DNA of 64,000 bases from Arcticibacter tournemirensis (GTDB lineage Bacteria; Bacteroidota; Bacteroidia; Sphingobacteriales; Sphingobacteriaceae), in assembly GCF_006716645.1 (NCBI RefSeq), contig NZ_VFPL01000001.1, forward strand, positions 4,960,001-5,024,000, written 5' to 3'. Below are positions 33,453-62,411 of the stretch, in pieces. The notes beneath the pieces were generated by a model. That model was not told the DNA's origin. It searched no databases and saw only the letters and a program-made list of their open reading frames with translations. The stretch's first letter is position 1, and the number at the start of each line of letters is the position of its first letter. A program made the position numbers and the translations under genes.

Positions 33453-33806
33453 TTGCAAGATCCATACTTACAGTTAGCGAGCATATTATTACCGAAAGGC
33501 ATCTTAGAATTTTTTGAATTAACACAGGTGCTTCAAAGTGAAGCAGGCCTGCATATATATCTTGAAGAGAAGAATATCCTTCCCCAGGAATATCACAACC
33601 AGAAGTTGGAATCCAAGGGGTTCATGCCCGAAATCACCATTCAGGACTTTCCTATCCGGGGCCAGAAGGTAAACTTGTGTATAAAACGGCGCAGATGGGA
33701 AGTAGCAGATAAAGGGACTATAGTAACCAGAGACTGGGATTTAGTACAGAAAGGAGCGCGGATGACCACAGAATTCGCCGCTTTTTTAAAAGGAATATTT
33801 GGATAA
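33453..33806 (+). CDS. ISAon1-type transposase N-terminal region protein
   Basis: A 117-residue protein opening at TTG 33453, with no ATG alternative. It contains PKGILEFFELTQV, IYLEEKNILPQEY, the IQDFPIRGQKV segment and the end MTTEFAAFLKGIFG, as in N-terminal region proteins of ISAon1 elements. It likely holds the DNA-binding part. Its stop codon overlaps the start of the catalytic ORF (TTGGATAA at 33799-33806), suggesting coupled translation. Confidence 0.9.
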   Translation: MQDPYLQLASILLPKGILEFFELTQVLQSEAGLHIYLEEKNILPQEYHNQKLESKGFMPEITIQDFPIRGQKVNLCIKRRRWEVADKGTIVTRDWDLVQKGARMTTEFAAFLKGIFG

Positions 33807-34782
33807 TTATCCGGTAAGCTGTCATCAACTGGGACACTATTTTAGGATTGACGGTAAACAGTTACAGGAACAATATAAAGATCATATCAGTACATTCCAT
33901 CAGTGGGAACAGAAAGATCATGCTGCCGAATGGATGGTATTCCCGGCCAACATGGGAGAATACCTCAGTATAGATGAAACGGCCCTCTCTGGCGGAGAAT
34001 TGTATACTATAATCACTAATAAGGCTGCAAGAGGGAGAAAAGGGAGCATTGTAGCCATGCTGAAAGGCACTCAGGCCGATCAGATCATTGCAGTTTTAGA
34101 GCGTATATCATTCCGCCTGAGAAAAAAAGTAAAAGAAGTAACCCTGGATATGGCTGCAAATATGGCCAAAGCTATCCGAAGATGCTTTCCATCTGCCCGC
34201 CGGGTCATTGACCGGTTCCATGTACAAAAGCTTGCCAGCGATGCTGTTCAGGAGCTCAGGATCAGATACCGGTGGGAAGCTTTGGAAGAGGAGAACGGAC
34301 GGATTGCCCAGGCCAGGAAAACCAAACAAAGCTATCAGCCTGAGGTGCTTCCTAATGGCGATACCCTCAAGCAGCTCCTGGCCCGAAGCAGATATCTGCT
34401 CTTTAAACACGAAAGCAAATGGACTCCATCACAAAAAGAACGTGCAGACATCCTATTCCCCCGCTATCCCCTGTTATATAAAGCCTATCAGTTAGCCCTC
34501 AGGTTAAGTAATATCTTTACCATCTGTAAGAGCAAGACACAGGCTTTTAAAAGACTGGCCATGTGGTATAATGATGTGGAAGCTTCTGCTATTGATTCTT
34601 TCAGCACAGTAGCCAGATCGGTACAAAGCCATTACGAATATATCCTGAACTTCTTTGACAACAGAAGTACCAACGCCGCCGCTGAATCTTTCAATGCCAA
34701 GATCAAGGCTTTCAGAGCTACCTCCAGAGGCGTTAGAGATACTGCTTTCTTCTTATTCCGTCTTGCTAATATTTATGCTTAA
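33799..34782 (+). CDS. ISAon1-type DDE transposase
   Basis: A 327-residue catalytic protein starting at TTG 33799, 8 bp inside orfA in the +1 frame relative to it. The DDE triad candidates are Asp in SIDETALS, Asp in TLDMAANMAK and Glu in NAAAESFNAKIKAFR; ANMGEYLSIDETAL and VIDRFHVQKLA are family blocks. The order orfA then orfB is normal for this group. Translation may use reinitiation at the stop/start overlap; a -1 slip would not give the right frame. Confidence 0.92.
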   Translation: MDNYPVSCHQLGHYFRIDGKQLQEQYKDHISTFHQWEQKDHAAEWMVFPANMGEYLSIDETALSGGELYTIITNKAARGRKGSIVAMLKGTQADQIIAVLERISFRLRKKVKEVTLDMAANMAKAIRRCFPSARRVIDRFHVQKLASDAVQELRIRYRWEALEEENGRIAQARKTKQSYQPEVLPNGDTLKQLLARSRYLLFKHESKWTPSQKERADILFPRYPLLYKAYQLALRLSNIFTICKSKTQAFKRLAMWYNDVEASAIDSFSTVARSVQSHYEYILNFFDNRSTNAAAESFNAKIKAFRATSRGVRDTAFFLFRLANIYA

Positions 34783-36130: not shown

Positions 36131-36178
36131 AGTTATCCACTGTCAATTATCAATTGTCAATTGTCAATTGTCAATTTA
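36131..36178 (-). repeat. Post-stop heptad array of the cytochrome b5-like gene (locus 4)
   Basis: Five exact or near-exact units of AATTGAC / AATTGAT (36142-36176) in gene sense, running straight from the stop codon TAA. Each unit holds TGA, so stops occur in all three frames within 21 nt. Confidence 0.8.
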
Positions 36179-36415
36179 TTTAACTCTCCCAATCACCATA
36201 AATTTCTCAAATACTTTTGCAGTATGCGGCGCATCTGAGAGCTCCTCCGTCAAATCCTGCCCCGCCCAGTGCTCATAGTGTTTCCCACTCCGCCACAAGC
36301 GGCTACCGGATACATCATAGATAAAACCCTGATACGCTACCCAAATTTCCGGTTTATCCTGTCCGTTCCTGAGAGCAAGTTGCTTCAGCGTGTAAAAAGG
36401 TAATTCAACTTCCAT
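36176..36415 (-). CDS. Cytochrome b5-like heme/steroid-binding domain protein
   Basis: A 79-residue single-domain protein without signal peptide or membrane segment: PFYTLKQLALRNGQD, IWVAYQGFIYDVSG, then KHYEHWAGQDLT and DAPHTAKVFEKF. His46 or His49 and His64 are the candidate heme ligands. Its ATG overlaps the stop of the lycopene cyclase gene (TAATG), so it is translationally coupled to a carotenoid operon. It may donate electrons to a membrane di-iron oxygenase such as the CrtW-like protein; this is inference. Free heme or sterol binding cannot be excluded. Confidence 0.88.
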   Translation of the reverse strand: MEVELPFYTLKQLALRNGQDKPEIWVAYQGFIYDVSGSRLWRSGKHYEHWAGQDLTEELSDAPHTAKVFEKFMVIGRVK

Positions 36416-37104
36416 TATATAGGGGCTCCGGCACTACGCCGTCTGAAATATTCGAAAAACAAGATATTGACCAGCAGCATACTCAAGGAATAAAAATGAT
36501 CCTCAAAAGGAATGGTCCCCACCCTCATCGCCGAATTTTGAGCGTCGTTATACATTACCACTGGCAAAGAAGTCAGCAATCCATTTACAATATAAAAAGG
36601 AATGAGTGAAATGAAATACGCAAGATAGAACCGGCCGGTATATGCAGGTCTCTTTATATAAAAGAACAAGACTACAAACAGCAACAAACCAAAAGTGATC
36701 AGGGTATACACCCTGTTAAAGTACAACACCAGCATGACGATACTGAGTGCAATCATCAACAGACTAATAACATTACCGATACGCCCCAAAATGTCCTTCT
36801 TTACATAGTAATTCAGGCATTCATAAATAAATATACAAGCAAAGGGCACTGTAATAAAGAAGAGGATCTCTTCGAGAGGGAGGTTTAAGAAGTATATACC
36901 AATGAGGTATTTCGCGTTAAATGTCCAGACATCATATAAGGTGAACAGATAATCCCACAATAAAAACAAGCCGCCCGTTATAATTAAGCCTGGAAATATA
37001 AACTTCCATTTTTTATAAAACTGCACTCTTTTATCAAAAGAAAGAACTACAGGAAAAAATAATGTTAGAAAATTAATAAGCAGATAAGTGTATTGCTTAT
37101 CCAT
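36415..37104 (-). CDS. Lycopene cyclase, fused heterodimer-type (CrtYcd-like)
   Basis: A 229-residue membrane protein with about six to seven helices, formed by two related halves as in fused CrtYc/CrtYd lycopene cyclases. The first half has YFLNLPLEEILFF (Pro76-Glu79) and the second TIPFEDHFYSLSM (Pro199-Asp202), the conserved acidic motifs. It cyclises one or both psi ends of lycopene to beta rings. The stop overlaps the cytochrome b5-like start, and its own start overlaps the upstream ORF by 8 bp. Whether it makes mono- or bicyclic product cannot be read from sequence. Confidence 0.92.
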   Translation of the reverse strand: MDKQYTYLLINFLTLFFPVVLSFDKRVQFYKKWKFIFPGLIITGGLFLLWDYLFTLYDVWTFNAKYLIGIYFLNLPLEEILFFITVPFACIFIYECLNYYVKKDILGRIGNVISLLMIALSIVMLVLYFNRVYTLITFGLLLFVVLFFYIKRPAYTGRFYLAYFISLIPFYIVNGLLTSLPVVMYNDAQNSAMRVGTIPFEDHFYSLSMLLVNILFFEYFRRRSAGAPI

Positions 37105-37633
37105 TTTTTATGCCCTCATTTAGTATTTCAACTTCTTTGGTATTAAACCGGTTTGTCTTTTTGAGAAAAATGATAATATTCTTCACCAGTGTACTATCTG
37201 CAGTACCAAAACTGTCCTTTTCAACCAACTCAACAATCTTCTTGCGGTCTTCCTCGAGATGCTTACCAAGCCCCAGGAACGAAGGCATGTAGTGTTCAAC
37301 ACTAAATCGCAAGAATCGAATTTCAAGACTCTCAGGACTGCTGGCCACAGCTTTTTCGAGGTCATGCAATCCGCTCTTCAAATATGCGACTTTACGGTAA
37401 GGATTCCATGAGTGTTTTGCCATTATTGCCTGCGCTGAACCATAATAAGCCGTTAGCAGCGGATCCGAAGATCGCATTGCTTTCATCTTTTCACAGAATT
37501 TTTCCGCAGCATCTTTGTCTTTAACGGCTGCATAAAATTCCTGTCGCACCTGTTTGATGTCGAAGGCGTTTAAGTTAGTAAAGGACGTGGATAGAACAAA
37601 CAGAATAAAAAAGTAACGGATCATATTGGTCAT
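37097..37633 (-). CDS. Exported conserved protein of unknown function in the crt operon
   Basis: A 178-residue protein with a signal peptide (IRYFFILFVLSTSFTNLNAF) and a helical mature part: AEKFCEKMKAMRSSDPLLTAYYGSAQAIMAK, then a conserved-looking LEIRFLRFSVEHYMPSFLG. The helix-turn-helix pattern resembles TPR-type repeats. I recognise similar proteins only as hypothetical ORFs near carotenoid genes of Bacteroidota; no function is assigned. It overlaps the cyclase gene by 8 bp and starts 3 bp after crtB, so it belongs to this operon. Confidence 0.8.
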   Translation of the reverse strand: MTNMIRYFFILFVLSTSFTNLNAFDIKQVRQEFYAAVKDKDAAEKFCEKMKAMRSSDPLLTAYYGSAQAIMAKHSWNPYRKVAYLKSGLHDLEKAVASSPESLEIRFLRFSVEHYMPSFLGLGKHLEEDRKKIVELVEKDSFGTADSTLVKNIIIFLKKTNRFNTKEVEILNEGIKNG

Positions 37634-37636
37634 GGA

Positions 37637-38473
37637 TCAGATTGTATTCAGTTTATCTTGAAGCAATGCCCGTGCCATCAGGTATAATTTCCTTCTGCCC
37701 GAAACACGCACTCTTTCTTTGCCTAGTAAATCCACAGGCCGGGACCTGATTTTCCTGAATAGTTCGTAGTAATAGAGGTAAGCGACAAACACTCCCCGTT
37801 TAGCCGCGCGGGGTAATTCCCTGATCCCTTTTAATCCCTCCTCGAAATCCTTTTGAATATCTGTTTCAATTTCCTTCTTATCTGATTCTGAAAAACGCGC
37901 AAAATCAACCCCGGGAAAATACACCCTTCCTCGTTCTTCAAAATCCGCTTTGATATCCCGCAGAAAGTTTATCTTCTGAAATGCCGAACCTAATCGTCTT
38001 GCCTCGGGCAATAACCTGGAATATAATGAATCGTCCCCGGCACAGAACACGCGCAGGCACATTAGGCCGATAACTTCTGCCGATCCGTAAACATAGGTGT
38101 TATATAAGTCTGAAGAATAGCTTTTCTTTTCAAGGTCCATCTCCATAGAAGCAAAAAAAGCATTTATCAGGCAAGTCTCAATCTTATATTTATGTACTAC
38201 TTTTTGAAAAGCATGGAGTATTGGATTCAGGCTGATACCTGTTTCTAACGCTTCAAATATTTCGCTTTTAAACTGATTGATAAGCTTCCGCTTATTATAG
38301 TCATGGAAGGTATCTACAATCTCATCTGCGTATCTCACAAAACCGTATATAGCATAAACAGGGGCCCGTAGTTTACTGTCAAAAGCCCTGATGCCCTGAC
38401 TGAACGACGTGCTGTATCTTTCAGTAACTATCTTGCTGCACTCAAAAGAAGTACTAGTGTACAAATCCATCAT
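37637..38473 (-). CDS. crtB: Phytoene synthase
   Basis: 278 residues from the ATG at 38473 (MMDLYTSTSFECSKIVTERY); ATG 38491 and GTG 38497 are alternatives. The two aspartate-rich motifs DEIVD (Asp50/Asp54) and NFLRDIKAD (Asp173/Asp177) for Mg-diphosphate binding are intact, as is RVYFPG. It condenses two GGPP to phytoene, the first committed step. First gene of the crtB-orf178-cyclase-cytb5 operon, divergent from crtI. Squalene synthase is less likely because of the crt context. Confidence 0.95.
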   Translation of the reverse strand: MMDLYTSTSFECSKIVTERYSTSFSQGIRAFDSKLRAPVYAIYGFVRYADEIVDTFHDYNKRKLINQFKSEIFEALETGISLNPILHAFQKVVHKYKIETCLINAFFASMEMDLEKKSYSSDLYNTYVYGSAEVIGLMCLRVFCAGDDSLYSRLLPEARRLGSAFQKINFLRDIKADFEERGRVYFPGVDFARFSESDKKEIETDIQKDFEEGLKGIRELPRAAKRGVFVAYLYYYELFRKIRSRPVDLLGKERVRVSGRRKLYLMARALLQDKLNTI

Positions 38474-38529
38474 AGTGTCACGGTTCAACATTATCACAAA
38501 ATACGGAAATTAAGCACAAAAGTTTCTAA

Positions 38530-38603: not shown

Positions 38604-40088
38604 ATGAAAAGTTCAAAAATTGCTATTATCGGCTCAGGATTTGCCGGCCTCGCGGCAGCGGCTCTTCTCGCTGCCGAAGGTCACGATGTTACAATTTATG
38701 AAAAGAACGAGCAGCCCGGGGGCAGGGCCCGGGTGTGGCAAAAAGATGGCTTTCGCTTCGACATGGGTCCCAGCTGGTACTGGATGCCTGATGTTTTCGA
38801 GAACTTTTTTAACTTATTTAAGCATAAAACATCCGATTTCTATGAATTAAAGCGTATTGATCCTTCATACCGGATATACTGGAATAAGAATGACTATAAT
38901 GATATCCCTGCTGGTATACCGCAGCTCAAAGAAATGTTTGAGCAATTGGAACCGGGATCGGCGGCTAACCTTGATATATTCCTGAAGCAGGCTGGATATA
39001 AATATTCCACCGGTATGGGCGACTTCGTATTCCGGCCCTCAAATTCTGTAAAAGAGTACATGGATATCCGGCTTCTTACGGCCAGTTTCAAATTGCAGAT
39101 GTTCTCAAGTATACGCGCCCATGTTAAAAAATATTTTAATAACCCCAGGATCGTTAAGCTGCTTGAGTTCCCCGTATTGTTCTTAGGCGGAACCGCTAAA
39201 AACACCCCTGCGCTTTACAGTATGATGAACTATGCAGACCTCGCTCTTGGCACATGGTACCCAATGGGAGGCATGAATGAAATTGTTAAAGCTATGGTCG
39301 CCGTTGCAGAGGAACAGGGCGTAAGAATAAAGTTAAATAGCGAAATAAAGGAAATTAAGGTTATAGATAATAAGGCCAGCAGCGTAGTGACCGAAACCGA
39401 ATCATTTGATGTGGATATGGTGATCTCAAATGCGGATTATGAACACACAGATCAAACGCTTCTGGAAACGAAATATCAAAATTACAGCGCAGCTTATTGG
39501 GATAAACGGGTTTTATCTCCTTCTTCTCTCCTGTTCTTTATCGGAACGAATAAGAAGGTTGAAGGAATAAAGCACCACAACCTGTTTTTTGACGAAGATT
39601 TCGAGAAACATTCTGAAGAGATTTACAAAGAACCTGCATGGCCGCAAAAACCTTTGTTTTATGTTTGCTGTCCCTCTAAAACCGATCCCCATGTAGCGCC
39701 CCCCGGAGCCGAAAACCTGTTTTTCCTAATCCCCGTTGCTTCCGGCCTGACCGATACACCGGAGATTCGCGAGAAGTATTTCAACATGATAATGGAGCGT
39801 TTTAAGACGATCACCGGACAGGACATACGCCCGTCGATAGTTGTAAACAGAAGTTATGCTATTAACGACTTCATAGAAGATTACCACTCTTTCAAGGGAA
39901 ATGCGTACGGACTTGCCAACACGCTGCTGCAAACTGCCTTCCTGAAACCGAAACTACGTTCAAAGAAAGTGGAAAATCTTCTTTATACAGGCCAGCTTAC
40001 GGTGCCTGGCCCGGGCGTCCCTCCTGCTATTATATCCGGTCAGGTGGCTGCCCGGGAAGCAATAAAATACCTTCAATCCACAACCTAA
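38604..40088 (+). CDS. crtI: Phytoene desaturase (CrtI type)
   Basis: A 494-residue FAD enzyme. The dinucleotide motif is GSGFAGLAAAALLAAEGHDV, followed by YEKNEQPGGRARVW and FDMGPSWYWMPDVF, and the C-terminal signature GQLTVPGPGVPPAIISGQVA. It introduces double bonds to turn phytoene into lycopene; some Bacteroidota enzymes also add 3',4' bonds, which cannot be told here. Divergent from crtB, probably sharing control at 38530-38544. Ends 9 bp from the convergent CoA-disulfide reductase gene. Confidence 0.96.
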   Translation: MKSSKIAIIGSGFAGLAAAALLAAEGHDVTIYEKNEQPGGRARVWQKDGFRFDMGPSWYWMPDVFENFFNLFKHKTSDFYELKRIDPSYRIYWNKNDYNDIPAGIPQLKEMFEQLEPGSAANLDIFLKQAGYKYSTGMGDFVFRPSNSVKEYMDIRLLTASFKLQMFSSIRAHVKKYFNNPRIVKLLEFPVLFLGGTAKNTPALYSMMNYADLALGTWYPMGGMNEIVKAMVAVAEEQGVRIKLNSEIKEIKVIDNKASSVVTETESFDVDMVISNADYEHTDQTLLETKYQNYSAAYWDKRVLSPSSLLFFIGTNKKVEGIKHHNLFFDEDFEKHSEEIYKEPAWPQKPLFYVCCPSKTDPHVAPPGAENLFFLIPVASGLTDTPEIREKYFNMIMERFKTITGQDIRPSIVVNRSYAINDFIEDYHSFKGNAYGLANTLLQTAFLKPKLRSKKVENLLYTGQLTVPGPGVPPAIISGQVAAREAIKYLQSTT

Positions 40089-52133: not shown

Positions 52134-53153
52134 TCATACCGGTCTGACTGCAAGTTGTGCCAGCACATCGATCCATTCAGCTTTATCATTCAAACTCTCA
52201 ACCAGTTGCACTTTCTCACCACCGAGTGCCTTAAACTCGAGGTCGTATTCTTCGGCAATCTCATAGATCGTTTCAAGACAGTCGGCAACAAATGCCGGAC
52301 TGAATACCAACAAGCGTTTGGCACCACCTTTCCCCAGAGAGTGTATCACTTCGCTGGTATAAGGCTGGGCCCAGGGGTCTTTACCAAGACGTGACTGGAA
52401 TGTCACTGTATATTTCTCCTTAGGAATCGAAAGCCTTTCTGCAATCAGCCTCGCTGTATTGTGGCATTGGGCTGAATAGCAAAACCTGTTGACGTCGGTT
52501 AAGCGCGAACAGCAATCAGCAGACTGAAGGCAATGCTTTTTACTATCATCTGCCTTTATAAGCTGACGTTGCGGCAACCCGTGAAAACTGAATATGATAT
52601 GATCAAAAGTTTCGGGCTGATACTTCAGTCCATTAGCTGCGAAAATTTCGATCATTCCCGGCTCATCATGATAGGAGTTCAAAAAAGAGATGGAAGGAAT
52701 AGTTTGCCACTTGCTCACCTGTTCCATTACTTTCTGATGAACAGAACCTGTGGTTGCAGAAGCATACTGCGGGAACAAAGGAATCACCTTAATACTTTTC
52801 ACACCTGCTGCTTTAAGCTTCTCCAACGCCACCGCAATGGAAGGGTTCTGATACCTCATTCCAAGTGCTACACAATAGTCGTCGCCAAGCTTCCTCTGAA
52901 GCAGCTCTGCGGCCCTTACACTATAAAAAAGCAGGGGCGAGCCGTTTTCCGTCCACACTTTCTGATATGTTTTGGCTGATTTAGGTCCCCGGAAAGGAAC
53001 AATGATCCCCTTAACAAGGAGAGTCCTGCCTACCGCACTGATATCGATCACCCGCTCATCCATCAAAAATTCATCAAGATAACGGCGTACGTCACTAACA
53101 GAAGGACTATCGGGAGTACCTAAGTTTACTAATAAGATTCCTTGTTTGCTCAT
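52134..53153 (-). CDS. hemH: Ferrochelatase
   Basis: 339 residues from the ATG at 53153 (MSKQGILLVNLGTPDSPSV). It has VIPLFPQYASATTGSV, the metal-binding FSFHGLPQRQL His and TFQSRLGKDPWAQPYT, and the C-terminal FSPAFVADCLETIYE. It inserts iron into protoporphyrin IX (or coproporphyrin III). Between apbE and the crtW-like gene. A perfect -7 box lies 12 nt upstream. Confidence 0.96.
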   Translation of the reverse strand: MSKQGILLVNLGTPDSPSVSDVRRYLDEFLMDERVIDISAVGRTLLVKGIIVPFRGPKSAKTYQKVWTENGSPLLFYSVRAAELLQRKLGDDYCVALGMRYQNPSIAVALEKLKAAGVKSIKVIPLFPQYASATTGSVHQKVMEQVSKWQTIPSISFLNSYHDEPGMIEIFAANGLKYQPETFDHIIFSFHGLPQRQLIKADDSKKHCLQSADCCSRLTDVNRFCYSAQCHNTARLIAERLSIPKEKYTVTFQSRLGKDPWAQPYTSEVIHSLGKGGAKRLLVFSPAFVADCLETIYEIAEEYDLEFKALGGEKVQLVESLNDKAEWIDVLAQLAVRPV

Positions 53154-53165
53154 ATTGATTCGGCA

Positions 53166-53173
53166 CAAATATA
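53166..53173 (-). promoter_or_regulatory. Candidate -7 box for hemH
   Basis: Minus strand TATATTTG, perfect TAnnTTTG, ending 12 nt before the hemH ATG; predicts a very short leader. Confidence 0.45.
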
Positions 53174-53231
53174 AGTTGGCCAGCTCGTTATTGATATAGT
53201 AAAGAACGGATTTGACTTAGTAAATACTTTT

Positions 53232-53903
53232 TCAGGGTTTCGTCTTCCATAACTTCCACCAGGGTATACCGGGGTATTCATGATGCTCGTAATGATAGCC
53301 GAAGAAATAGCAGCTTAAAAAGCCAAGCAAGTGGTTCTTTTTCTGAGTCCCTGAATAATGCTTATTATTATGCTCACCGTGATGTGGTAACCATGTACCA
53401 AAGTAAAATAGCTGCAGAGTGCTTAACAGTGCCGGAGCTACCCAAAAGAGCACGAGGTTTTTCTGCGGGAACCACATAGCTAGAACATTAAACGACACGG
53501 CCATACATATGAACTGCAAGACCGACATATATTCAGGCATAAACTTGAAGTACCATCTTATGAAGCTTCCTTCAGAATAATCAGGATCAAGATCTGAATG
53601 CACGTATTTATGATGCTGATGATGTTTGATGTTTAGTTTTTTAAAAGAAAAAGCGGCATATAGAGCTGTGCAGATCTGACCTGTTATAAAATTCACTCTT
53701 TCGGAGGGATAGATGGTACCATGCATCGCATCGTGCGCTGTAATAAAAAGTCCGGTATACAGGTGCATTTGCACCAACACCATGAGGTACACCACAGGAT
53801 TGCTCCATGAAAACTGCCACCTTAACAAAAACACAAGACAGACCAGCCATGTAACAATTACAGCGATTGCAACAAACAGCCCTGCCTTAGATGCTTGATT
53901 CAT
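53232..53903 (-). CDS. crtW: CrtW-like beta-carotene ketolase (membrane di-iron oxygenase)
   Basis: A 223-residue membrane protein of the fatty-acid desaturase fold. Histidine boxes: HDAMH (His57, His61), HHQHH (His94-98), WLPHHGEH (about 174-178) and YHYEHH (His204-208), followed by PGIPWWKLWK, the C-terminal pattern of CrtW 4-ketolases. It adds a 4-keto group to a beta ring. Its stop-to-start neighbour ispH begins 3 bp upstream, so it is in an isoprenoid/carotenoid transcription unit. A CrtZ-type hydroxylase is less likely because of the HDAMHG and PWW signatures. Confidence 0.88.
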   Translation of the reverse strand: MNQASKAGLFVAIAVIVTWLVCLVFLLRWQFSWSNPVVYLMVLVQMHLYTGLFITAHDAMHGTIYPSERVNFITGQICTALYAAFSFKKLNIKHHQHHKYVHSDLDPDYSEGSFIRWYFKFMPEYMSVLQFICMAVSFNVLAMWFPQKNLVLFWVAPALLSTLQLFYFGTWLPHHGEHNNKHYSGTQKKNHLLGFLSCYFFGYHYEHHEYPGIPWWKLWKTKP

Positions 53904-53906
53904 GGC

Positions 53907-54755
53907 CTAGTATTCTTCGAGGGTTCTCTTAACCTTCTCCATAAGCCATAGAGGTGTAGATGTAGCGCCACAGATACCTACTTTATCACCAGGGTGAAAC
54001 ATGTCGGCCTTCAATTCTTCCACGCCTGAAATAAAATAAGTATCGGGATTATACTTACGGCAAACTTCATATAAAACTTTCCCGTTCGACGATTTCTTCC
54101 CCGACACAAATACTATCTTATTGAAGTTGGTTACGAAGCCCCTGAGTTGCTCATCGCGATTAGAAACCTGCCTGCATATAGTATCATTTGCATCAACATC
54201 GTAACCACGCCTGATCAATTCATCCTTTATCTGGTAAAATTTATCCGTACTCTTTGTTGTCTGGCTGTATAATGTGAACTTTTTAGGAAGATCCATATTA
54301 TCCAGTTCTGAGAGGTCCTGGAACACCAGTGCCTCATTATTTGTCTGCCCCTGTAATCCAATTACTTCTGCATGACCATGTTTCCCGAAAATAAGGATCG
54401 GTTCCTTTTCTTCGTGCGACGTCTTTATCCTGTTTTGCAGCTTTAACACCACCGGACAAGAAGCGTCGATCAGCGTAATATTATTTTTCAGCGCAATCCG
54501 GTAAGTTTCAGGAGCTTCGCCATGCGCCCTGATAAGGACTTTCTCTCCATGAAGATCCTTAAGATGTTCATGATCTATAATCCTTAAACCTTGCGCCTTG
54601 AGACGCTCAACTTCCTCATCGTTATGCACAATATCTCCCAGACAGTATAAATATCCCTCTTCCCGGAGAATCTCCTCCGCCATATCAATGGCATATACAA
54701 CCCCAAAACAAAAGCCGGAATTTGTATCTATCGTAACCTCAAGATTGTAGCTCAT
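53907..54755 (-). CDS. ispH: 4-hydroxy-3-methylbut-2-enyl diphosphate reductase
   Basis: A 282-residue [4Fe-4S] enzyme. Cluster cysteines Cys16 (NSGFCFGV), Cys100 (DASCPVV) and Cys194 (NDTICRQ) are present, with RAHGEAPE and the later GICGATSTP block. It makes IPP and DMAPP in the last MEP step. Placement directly upstream of the CrtW-like gene and downstream of cruF ties isoprenoid supply to carotenoid synthesis. A perfect -7 box lies 14 nt before the start. Confidence 0.96.
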   Translation of the reverse strand: MSYNLEVTIDTNSGFCFGVVYAIDMAEEILREEGYLYCLGDIVHNDEEVERLKAQGLRIIDHEHLKDLHGEKVLIRAHGEAPETYRIALKNNITLIDASCPVVLKLQNRIKTSHEEKEPILIFGKHGHAEVIGLQGQTNNEALVFQDLSELDNMDLPKKFTLYSQTTKSTDKFYQIKDELIRRGYDVDANDTICRQVSNRDEQLRGFVTNFNKIVFVSGKKSSNGKVLYEVCRKYNPDTYFISGVEELKADMFHPGDKVGICGATSTPLWLMEKVKRTLEEY

Positions 54756-54805: not shown

Positions 54806-55015
54806 ATAATTGACAGTTGAAAATTGACAATTGAAAGTGAAAACATTATCAACGTTATTTTTATTTATCCTCCGCCCATTTTGAATTGTCCCCTGTCAAC
54901 TGTCCATCGTCCCTTATCCATTGTCGACTGTCAATTCTCCCTTGTCAATTGTCCATTGTCAATTCTCCCTTGTTAATTGTCCATTGTCCTTTGTCAATTG
55001 TCAATTGTCCATTAT
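54806..55015 (-). repeat. Post-stop heptad array of the cruF-like gene with complementary arm (locus 7)
   Basis: The longest array: about 17 units of TTGACAA / TGGACAA / AGGGACAA-like words in gene sense from 55015 to about 54884, nearly all in 7-nt register. It covers the last four codons; the stop TGA is itself a repeat element. A complementary arm (TTTCAATTGTCAATTTTCAA in the same sense) lies at about 54806-54838. The plus strand has no stops, producing a spurious ORF. Confidence 0.8.
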
Positions 55016-55660
55016 CAAAAGAATGAGGAAAAACAAAAATTGCGTTATAAACAAGACTGGCGCAGCTGGATTATGTTTCTTAAAAGGGAGATGCATAAAA
55101 AGGTATAACAGTGCAAAAGAAAACAGGTACCATGCAACATAATTCTGCGGGGGAATATCGTAGGTTTTCCATGACCAGTAATCAAAGCGAATAGCCACGG
55201 GCTCTATCACAAAGTCGAGCAGTGTGACAAATGTGGATCCCACAGCTGCAGCTAAAACAGTATTTTTTATACCTATAGATTTTACAAGCATTCCGGCGGA
55301 ATAGATCACCAGGATCCAGTTAACTCCAATCATCAGGGGTATTTCCATCAGTTTCAGGCCTAAAGTGCTCCCATAAGAATATTCGCCGAAGATCATTCCT
55401 GTATGCACTCCAATCAGCTCTATCGTATATCCCGCTATATATGTAATAACAAGGAATATATAAAATGAGGAGTTCTTCTCCGGCTGACTGAAGATCATTA
55501 GAAACAGCATCAGCAGCAGGTGAAATGGTACAAGCTGCTTAAATAGCCCATTGAACGCCGGCACCATAAAGCCTGTCAGCCCCACTACGTGAAATATCAC
55601 GATCAGTAAAACACATATTGAGTTACGGCTCAGCTTCATTAATTCGTATATCCAAAACAA
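55001..55660 (-). CDS. cruF: CruF-like carotenoid 1',2'-hydratase (DUF422 family)
   Basis: A 219-residue membrane protein with about seven helices. Family blocks: ELIGVHTGMIFGEYSYGSTLG, EIPLMIGVNWILVIYSAGM and DFVIEPVAIRFDYWSW, typical of the carotenoid biosynthesis family that includes CruF and the bacterioruberin hydratases. It adds water to a psi end, giving a 1'-hydroxy group that can be glycosylated. Upstream neighbour is the GT2 enzyme. Its last codons lie inside the heptad array. Confidence 0.9.
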   Translation of the reverse strand: MFWIYELMKLSRNSICVLLIVIFHVVGLTGFMVPAFNGLFKQLVPFHLLLMLFLMIFSQPEKNSSFYIFLVITYIAGYTIELIGVHTGMIFGEYSYGSTLGLKLMEIPLMIGVNWILVIYSAGMLVKSIGIKNTVLAAAVGSTFVTLLDFVIEPVAIRFDYWSWKTYDIPPQNYVAWYLFSFALLYLFMHLPFKKHNPAAPVLFITQFLFFLILLIMDN

Positions 55661-55710: not shown

Positions 55711-55806
55711 ACTTTAAACTTTTAACGTTCAACTTTCAATCCTCAACTTTCCACTCTCAACATTCAACTCTCCACTCTCCTCTCAACATTCAATTCTCCA
55801 CTCTCC
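55711..55806 (-). repeat. Post-stop heptad array of the cruC-like gene (locus 8)
   Basis: About 12 units of GAGTTGA / GAATGTT / GAGAGTG type in gene sense, from the last codons (VEN-stop) of the GT2 gene to about 55711. TGA recurs in 7-nt steps. No complementary arm seen. Confidence 0.75.
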
Positions 55807-56881
55807 GCCCCTTCCAGGTAATTGTTTTGGTCAAATGTTTTTGTATCGACAAAAAAGATATAAGCACAAATGCAGCCATCTGAAAAGGGTGGAGTAAAAT
55901 ATTAACCAGTGGATTCTGCCCGCTTAATAAGGAAATCATCAGGCGCGAAAGGATTATCAGCGTGACAGCAAAAAATAGCAGCTGGATATCCAGATACAAA
56001 GCGATGAAAAGAGGTCCCATCATAACGAGCAGCAAATAACATATTAGTCCGGCAATATTATTATTAAACCCGGCAAGCAGATTCTTACTAAATCCAGCAG
56101 CGGCTTCTTTAAAGCCTGTATACATCCGGCAAGAAACAAATCCATTGGCGAGTAAAGCCTCTGCTTTATACTGGTAAGCTTTTATCAGTTTCATAATTGC
56201 AATATCCTCAACTACACGGTCTTTAACCTGCGCATGCCAATGATGACTATGATAGTTCGAAGCATCAAACAACATGAACTGGCCGCTTGCAGCAGAGAAT
56301 GCAGTATTCCTGGTGAGGCGCACCAGGCGCAGAGGAAGCAGGTTAAGCAGTAAAAAGTGCATCAGGGGAACCACCATCCATTCTCCCAATGTGCTCATTA
56401 CCTGGTTTGTAAAAAGGCTTAATAATGTCAATTTCCCCATCTTCATCCGGTTAATCGAATTATTAATCAGTCCGGGTGATATAAAAGTGTCGGCATCAAG
56501 AAACAATAAATATCTTCCTACGGCCAGATGTGCCAGCTGGTGGCATGCAAAGTTCTTCCCCAGCCATCCTTCGGGCAGAGGCTCTCCCCTCACTACCCTA
56601 AAACGGTTGTCTGTTTTGACGAAGTTTGCACAGATATCATATGTAAGGTCCGTAGAGGAATCGTCAAGCACAATCACTTCAAAATTTTGATAATCCTGGT
56701 GCTTAATAGATTCAAGGAGCTTTAAGATATCGTGCTGTTCGTTCCTTGCCGGAATAACAATTGAAACCAAATCAGTGTACTTTCTTGCAGTCTTGTTTAG
56801 CTTCGGATTGGAAATAAAATTGAATAAGGTGACAGCAAACCGAAGTATGAGAAAGAAGAAGACTACATAATATATCAACAT
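55790..56881 (-). CDS. cruC: GT2 glycosyltransferase, CruC-like (carotenoid glycosylation)
   Basis: A 363-residue membrane-anchored GT-A enzyme: N-terminal helix, VSIVIPARNEQHDILKLLES, VIVLDDSSTDLT, PLPEGWLGKNFACHQLA, LLFLDADTF (DxD) and DRVVEDIAIM, then three C-terminal helices. The LPEGWLGK-Cys/His block is typical of carotenoid glycosyltransferases (CruC, CrtQ). Expected to glycosylate the 1'-hydroxy group made by CruF. Starts 2 bp after the acyltransferase gene. Confidence 0.83.
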   Translation of the reverse strand: MLIYYVVFFFLILRFAVTLFNFISNPKLNKTARKYTDLVSIVIPARNEQHDILKLLESIKHQDYQNFEVIVLDDSSTDLTYDICANFVKTDNRFRVVRGEPLPEGWLGKNFACHQLAHLAVGRYLLFLDADTFISPGLINNSINRMKMGKLTLLSLFTNQVMSTLGEWMVVPLMHFLLLNLLPLRLVRLTRNTAFSAASGQFMLFDASNYHSHHWHAQVKDRVVEDIAIMKLIKAYQYKAEALLANGFVSCRMYTGFKEAAAGFSKNLLAGFNNNIAGLICYLLLVMMGPLFIALYLDIQLLFFAVTLIILSRLMISLLSGQNPLVNILLHPFQMAAFVLISFLSIQKHLTKTITWKGRRVEN

Positions 56882-56883
56882 GG

Positions 56884-57495
56884 TTAAACGATAGTGCGGT
56901 TTTGCAAATTCCGCGAAATTTCGTAATGTTTATTATAAGCCCGTTTAATTAGTTGCAGACTAGTAAACTCGGCATCTTCCCAGCTCATCAGATAACAATT
57001 AACAGAGGGCTTGCGGTTTTCAAAATAATCAACGAAAGAAGCAGCAAAAACGTATTGAAATCTTTTGTCGGACGAATTGATGAGATTAAGCAAGCCTTTC
57101 TCAAACTTTATCTCGTGGGTATGCGACGAATATAATTTCCCCTGCGGAAACACCAATACCAGGTTACTCTTATCATTCAAAAGTTTGCCTGCATACTCGA
57201 GAGCCTCCACAACACTCTTGGAGTGCTTTTTGACCGGAAAAGCACCGAGATATTTAAGAAACCACAGTTTTCGGTAGTTTTCTTCATTTACCATCACATG
57301 GAAGTTCTTTTTAAAGAGTCGCTTATTAAGCTCAAACATCAGAAAGCCATCCCACCATGAAAAATGATTAGCGATAAGGAGCACAGCCCTGTCCTGATCA
57401 AAAACAGGTTGATGGAAAGAGAATTCCCTAAAGTCGCGGCCAATAATCCGGCTGATGTACCACGAAAAGAAAGCTTTTACAACACGCTTATGCAT
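56884..57495 (-). CDS. PlsC-like acyltransferase, CruD-like
   Basis: A 203-residue 1-acylglycerol-3-phosphate-acyltransferase-like protein. ANHFSWWDGFL is the NHx4D catalytic motif and LVFPQGKLYSSH corresponds to the FPEG block. Length and adjacency to the CruC-like enzyme suggest it acylates the carotenoid glycoside (CruD role in green sulfur bacteria). First gene of the run toward crtW. A lipid-A or phospholipid role cannot be excluded on sequence alone. Confidence 0.8.
   Translation of the reverse strand: MHKRVVKAFFSWYISRIIGRDFREFSFHQPVFDQDRAVLLIANHFSWWDGFLMFELNKRLFKKNFHVMVNEENYRKLWFLKYLGAFPVKKHSKSVVEALEYAGKLLNDKSNLVLVFPQGKLYSSHTHEIKFEKGLLNLINSSDKRFQYVFAASFVDYFENRKPSVNCYLMSWEDAEFTSLQLIKRAYNKHYEISRNLQNRTIV

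Positions 57496-61103: not shown

Positions 61104-62411
<1,308 letters not shown>

Follow-up and report, generated by a model that had tools for sequence, protein, structure and literature searches.

Free-standing cytochrome b5 proteins of bacteria have, to our knowledge, few assigned partners, and little is understood of how Gram-negative bacteria bring carotenoids to their outer membrane. Acyl-CoA desaturases work with a cytochrome b5-like system (PMC9825965). The flexixanthin cluster of Algoriphagus comprises crtB, crtI, cruF, crtYcd, crtW and crtZ, and its gene list contains neither a cytochrome b5 gene nor a counterpart of the exported protein described below (PMC10784355). For the aryl-polyene (ape) cluster of E. 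coli, whose transport genes encode ApeL (LolA), ApeM (RND/MMPL) and ApeN, it has been proposed that the LolA- and RND-type genes deliver the pigment to the outer membrane (PMC8253772).

The window, i.e. the whole stretch of 64 000 nucleotides from Arcticibacter tournemirensis that was analysed, carries a carotenoid operon on its minus strand in the order crtB, X, crtYcd and b5. The phytoene synthase gene crtB (37637–38497) was assigned by PF00494 (E = 2e-46); X (37097–37633) encodes a protein of 178 residues, predicted to be exported and all-helical, whose unannotated family is linked to polyene pigment clusters; the third gene (36415–37104) encodes a lycopene cyclase of 229 residues, matched by TIGR03462 and in two stretches by PF18916; and b5 (36176–36415) encodes a cytochrome b5-domain protein of 79 residues (PF00173, 38.5 bits, above the curated cut-off of 23.7). 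crtB and X are separated by 3 bp, X and the cyclase gene overlap by 8 bp (ATGGATAA) and the cyclase and b5 genes meet in TAATG; the sequence-only reading had proposed an operon with these junctions, and the open frames bear it out. A single chain with two PF18916 (CarR-type) domains in tandem identifies the cyclase as CrtYcd type, and two PF18916 matches per gene were also found in its relatives. The CrtID-type phytoene desaturase/3,4-desaturase gene crtI (38604–40088, plus strand; NF058655, 750 bits, cut-off 640) is divergent from crtB. The best explanation of this layout is an operon for a monocyclic carotenoid with two passenger genes, b5 and X, that have different roles.

A second group of carotenoid genes spans 52–57.5 kb of the window. 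It contains, all on the minus strand, genes for a CrtW-like ketolase (53232–53903), a CruF-like 1,2-hydratase (55001–55660; TIGR03460, E = 1e-21, below the cut-off), a carotenoid-type glycosyltransferase of the HpnB/CruG-like kind (55790–56881; TIGR03469 and NF045692, both below the cut-off) and an acyltransferase that probably acylates a carotenoid glycoside (56884–57495; weak acyltransferase matches). The CrtW-like enzyme invoked in the sequence-only reading thus has a gene, which scores 227.1 bits with NF045690, below the CrtW equivalog cut-off of 350, and which lies 15 kb away from the operon in another gene group. Taken together with the published flexixanthin gene set, which is largely the same set of enzymes (PMC10784355), the second group suggests that the product is a monocyclic keto-carotenoid, which may be glycosylated and acylated. 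Homologues of the acyltransferase, glycosyltransferase and cruF genes are also neighbours in two other loci (L089 and L196). The CrtW-like gene is flanked by ispH and hemH on the same strand (52134–54755), with a gap of 3 bp to ispH and of about 60 bp to hemH; the ispH–crtW adjacency was also seen in a locus of another family (L079), a family that holds the flexixanthin-type cluster, and this locus has neither b5 nor X at its crt genes.

Using a profile of X, 80 named genome loci were collected from Arcticibacter, Pararcticibacter, Pedobacter, Mucilaginibacter, Daejeonella and other genera. X, cyclase and b5 follow each other in that order in 75 of these loci (Sphingobacteriaceae), an arrangement far beyond chance; cyclase and b5 overlap or lie within 30 bp of each other in 42 of the 75 and are 156–1154 bp apart in 31. 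The median identity to the window protein is 81% for the product of the neighbouring pfkB, 74% for b5, 61% for CrtB, 57% for the cyclase and 37% for X; by these values, b5 evolves as housekeeping genes do and X rapidly. Within the operon, b5 has the highest conservation and the loosest tie to the pathway, and operon membership taken by itself misleads. In many Pedobacter crt loci (among L180–L234) crtB went undetected between crtI and X; it seems to have been relocated elsewhere in this genus, with X kept beside the cyclase gene.

The b5 protein is the sole PF00173 protein of the genome. Its AF2 model (mean pLDDT 83.5) has the cytochrome b5 fold, with Foldseek matches at E = 5e-7 to PDB entry 6nzx and at 2.5e-5 to rat cytochrome b5. 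By sequence and by fold alike, its nearest PDB entries are the b5-domain proteins 6nzx (Hadesarchaea) and 6vz6 (Methanococcoides burtonii), which have the same length (78–79 residues), match it end to end (E = 2e-18 and 5e-14, respectively), are its best Foldseek matches (TM 0.78 and 0.77) and have a similar histidine pattern (G-H..H-AGxDLT...APH); they differ in being archaeal, from hosts in which O2-dependent desaturases are not expected. We know of no crt or ECF sigma context for either protein. His46, His49 and His64 are invariant in an alignment of 20 diverse b5 sequences. The canonical HPGG motif, which provides the first axial histidine, is absent from b5 and GKHYEHWAG stands in its place; His64 (in APH) is at the second axial position of canonical cytochrome b5, which is kept, and His46 or His49 would be the other axial ligand. 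The protein is a non-canonical member of the b5 fold, of a prokaryotic three-histidine type, and probably binds heme and transfers electrons. Its sequence has no membrane segment and no signal peptide, and it is therefore expected to be soluble and cytoplasmic, on the side of the membrane from which CrtW and fatty-acid desaturases presumably draw electrons. Assignment as a heme/steroid binder of the MAPR (PGRMC1) type was rejected: the inserted loop is missing, the protein has 79 residues compared with about 100–110 for the MAPR domain, and PGRMC1 and plant MAPR-like structures align to it only with gaps and score below the two archaeal b5 structures. A literature search on prokaryotic b5/MAPR classes gave nothing relevant.

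The distribution of b5 was determined in about 300 genomes, comprising 61 genomes of the family Sphingobacteriaceae and a phylum sample of 247. Within the family, b5 is present in 46 genomes, the cyclase gene in 43 and crtI in 42, and nine near-complete genomes (G007, G014, G015, G022, G028, G029, G045, G057 and G058) have b5 with neither cyclase nor crtI. The usual order in crt-less genomes is murB, ECF sigma, b5, with pfkB facing b5 in most; in many crt-bearing relatives the crtI/crtB–X–cyclase block separates the ECF sigma gene from b5, so that b5 would be read from the crt transcript in crt-bearing species. Where crt genes are missing from the locus, either altogether or because they lie elsewhere in the genome (L034, L036, L037, L046 and others), the ECF sigma-70 gene and b5 overlap or almost abut; no ECF sigma gene lies beside the crt locus of the window. 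The adjacency is not general, and a partnership of b5 with the sigma factor was rejected. Some genomes have, elsewhere, a second type of operon, crtI–crtB–X–crtZ–cyclase in varying order, mostly with X and without b5. b5 was found in 26 of the 28 family genomes with CrtW and in 20 of the 33 without it; it is missing from the crt-bearing clades g11 and g23, which also lack CrtW. Genome G044 has crtI, crtB, X, cyclase, crtZ and CrtW and no b5, the cyclase and pfkB genes being 47 bp apart. In the phylum sample, PF00173 proteins occur in 14 genomes from three families only. In the two families other than Sphingobacteriaceae they are 63–75% identical to the window protein (alignment range), and their genes mostly share an operon with those for an arginase-family protein, a BadF-type kinase and/or MurQ, on a different contig from the cyclase gene or far away from it. 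Co-occurrence with carotenoid genes over Bacteroidota fails outside the family; 43 of the 54 phylum genomes with a cyclase over the cut-off have no PF00173 protein.

A survey of PF00487 proteins in the family genomes indicated that genomes without b5 appeared to lack one class of membrane desaturase. Its members are short (roughly 242–270 residues; in this genome C1:3062068–3062793, locus L091), contain the boxes HRYASHK, HRDHH and NNHHRHP and a VNxxxHxYGY segment as in SCD1, and have acyl-CoA desaturases as their sole PDB relatives (SCD1, PDB entry 4ymk, E = 2e-4). Both genes are present in 38 family genomes, the desaturase gene alone in three, b5 alone in eight and neither in 12; b5 accordingly occurs in 38 of 41 desaturase-positive and eight of 20 desaturase-negative genomes (odds ratio 19, Fisher p = 2e-5). 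With one genome drawn per genus, a crude phylogenetic control, the median p was 0.01 (5–95% range 0.0005–0.08). This scheme was used because enolase, tried as a species-tree marker, gave identities in two groups (about 83–90% and 72–77%) that cut across genera. The desaturase class had been picked on these same family genomes, and the phylum sample therefore offers a more independent test: there, 30 of 247 genomes have the short desaturase gene, including all 14 b5 genomes, six of which belong to the family already examined. The desaturase copy of G249 (locus L162), a genome with b5, is broken and interrupted by stops. Sixteen phylum genomes have the short desaturase without b5, so that other donors suffice there.

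The association is specific to this class. Within the family, b5 is not associated with the cyclase (p = 0.34), crtI (p = 0.20) or X (p = 0.19), and its association with CrtW (p = 0.006, odds ratio 8; one-per-genus median p = 0.09) is weaker than that with the desaturase. A tie to the long (acyl-lipid-type) desaturases was rejected, as these occur in 33 of 46 genomes with b5 and 13 of 15 without it (p = 0.32, in the opposite direction); ten of the 12 genomes that lack both b5 and the short enzyme still carry a long desaturase. Pooling the short desaturase with CrtW gave a slightly better fit (41, 3, 5 and 12 genomes in the same four cells). The three genomes with the desaturase and without b5 (G032, G034 and G044) are all 92–93% complete; of the eight with b5 and without the desaturase, two are 71–76% complete and three have CrtW, and G037, G038 and G053 are near-complete genomes with b5 and neither desaturase nor CrtW. 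b5 never adjoins the desaturase gene in the loci read, and no alternative donor gene was recognized by eye within 1.5 kb of the desaturase in b5-less genomes. The link is correlative, an association and not an interaction. No publication joining cytochrome b5 with a Bacteroidetes lycopene cyclase or with Pedobacter desaturases was found. The pair resembles the eukaryotic cytochrome b5/SCD1 system in the b5 fold, the second axial histidine position and the SCD1-related desaturase; unlike in that system, b5 here has neither a membrane anchor nor HPGG and the two genes are unlinked.

X is conserved among relatives and begins with a signal-like segment, which together indicate a real gene; AxA-like sites can be read from the sequence rows of many aligned members, and X is predicted to be located outside the cytoplasm. 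It has no Pfam or NCBIfam match and no PDB match by sequence. Its AF2 model (mean pLDDT 93.5) is all alpha, the first helix being the signal-like segment, followed by eight helices. Pfam TPR searches of 22 members gave only scattered noise at E > 0.01, and the best PDB matches by fold were TPR or helical-repeat proteins, all weak and none significant (E at least 6e-3, TM at most 0.50); a bacterial sterol transporter (7t1s; TM 0.42–0.44, E 0.04–0.07) was among them. The family is present in 45 of the 61 family genomes, in the crtB–X–cyclase operon and in the crtZ-type operon, and also in carotenoid clusters of other lineages that have no b5 at the locus (L089, L188 and L196). The flexirubin-type link rests mainly on a single genus, of which three crt-less genomes (G003, G028 and G057) have an X homologue inside an aryl-polyene/flexirubin-type cluster (L304:8385–8852, L305:8373–8840 and L306:8255–8722). 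The homologue is flanked there by a FabA-like dehydratase and a GT2-DUF2062 protein; an MMPL-acyltransferase fusion is nearby, as is LolA in two of the three (L305 and L306), and in one the stretch read also contains a ketosynthase. These clusters share the MMPL and LolA types with the ape transport genes; X itself is without a Pfam family and is not recognizable among the listed ape genes (PMC8253772). A more distant homologue in G014 lies beside genes of the fatty-acid-synthesis type. Pigment genes are absent from the neighbourhood of the paralogues in G016, G038 and G053; an X paralogue that adjoins no pigment gene was noted in one genus (L308:8071–8574, L309:7960–8460 and L310:8099–8605).

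The sequence-only reading had taken b5 for a dedicated heme electron donor for carotenoid oxygenation; CrtW or CrtZ would be the recipient. The tight, often overlapping cyclase–b5 junction, the presence of b5 in nearly all CrtW genomes and its absence from the CrtW-less clades g11 and g23 agree with such a role. Within the family, the reading fails because b5 persists after loss of the pathway, being kept in most CrtW-less genomes and in the nine genomes with neither cyclase nor crtI; crtZ-type operons and most cyclase genomes of the phylum do without b5, G044 has CrtW and no b5, and the genes beside b5 in the two other families are of a different kind. A dedicated donor is largely refuted as such and we regard it as very improbable; CrtW may nonetheless be among several clients that b5 reduces, and membrane di-iron enzymes, also named in that reading, are the likeliest class of client. 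A heme chaperone, heme buffer or redox/heme sensor with no electron-transfer client, perhaps tied to the ECF sigma factor, would fit the direct adjacency of the sigma gene in crt-less genomes, the varying operon partners and the nearest solved relatives, which are archaeal and in one case from a methanogen, where desaturase partners are not expected. The sigma gene is, however, not beside b5 in the two other families or in the window, and such a role would leave the correlation with one particular desaturase unexplained; we consider this reading unlikely. We are similarly doubtful that genome reduction or shared ancestry produced the correlation as a side effect, with b5 serving an unrelated housekeeping partner: b5 and desaturase are both absent from the small-genome clades g11 and g23 and the more poorly assembled g24, b5 is confined to three sampled families and the one-per-genus p reaches 0.08, but the cyclase, crtI, X and long desaturases of the same genomes are uncorrelated with b5, both genes are jointly absent from full-size genomes of three further genera (G003, G016 and G019), and same-genus relatives of G003 carry both. 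The better-supported reading is that the position of b5 beside the crt block is an outcome of gene order and that its presence follows the SCD1-type desaturase.

The earlier suggestion of X as a carotenoid carrier or assembly factor is strengthened by the occurrence of X in carotenoid operons without b5 and in aryl-polyene clusters beside lipid-export genes. As a membrane-side assembly or scaffold factor for the carotenoid enzymes, X would be well placed by its gene between crtB and the cyclase, and its all-helical, possibly TPR-like predicted fold would be typical of scaffolds; its signal-like N-terminus would, however, put it outside the cytoplasm while CrtB acts inside, and homologues occur in polyketide-type aryl-polyene clusters that have neither CrtB nor cyclase. 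We hold a scaffold role to be improbable. The best single reading, held with modest confidence, is that X moves or holds polyene pigments outside the cytoplasm, and X may be a periplasmic pigment-trafficking factor. An exported family common to carotenoid and aryl-polyene clusters is a concrete candidate for pigment transit, and X deserves more attention than b5.

The joint explanation that we favour, and to which we give an even chance, is that b5 is shared by the SCD1-type desaturase and possibly CrtW and that X is a periplasmic pigment factor. In such a scheme b5 would be a small, soluble, cytoplasmic one-electron carrier with a housekeeping rather than a carotenoid-dedicated role; a putative flavoprotein reductase would reduce it, and it would pass the electron to the di-iron centre of the short SCD1-type (acyl-CoA-type) desaturase at the membrane, most likely its main client. 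CrtW, as a membrane di-iron enzyme, would be a possible second client. X would work in the periplasm, binding or handing over the pigment or the pigment's carrier. The phyletic link of b5 to one class of desaturase, with none to the others, makes direct genetic testing possible in Pedobacter relatives, which are easy to handle. A bolder version, in which X represents a new periplasmic polyene-trafficking family serving both carotenoids and aryl polyenes/flexirubins and b5 and the acyl-CoA desaturase form an SCD-like pair, seems to us unlikely to hold in full; if true, X would be a missing link in pigment transit to the outer membrane in Bacteroidota, for two chemically unrelated pathways.

Two further features of the window were noted. 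Two overlapping frames at 33453–34782 resemble an insertion-sequence transposase, as judged from their sequence. The enolase gene (61119–62411) is 83–90% identical to those of many other genera and 73–75% identical to those of its own genus, a pattern that suggests gene replacement or hidden paralogy.
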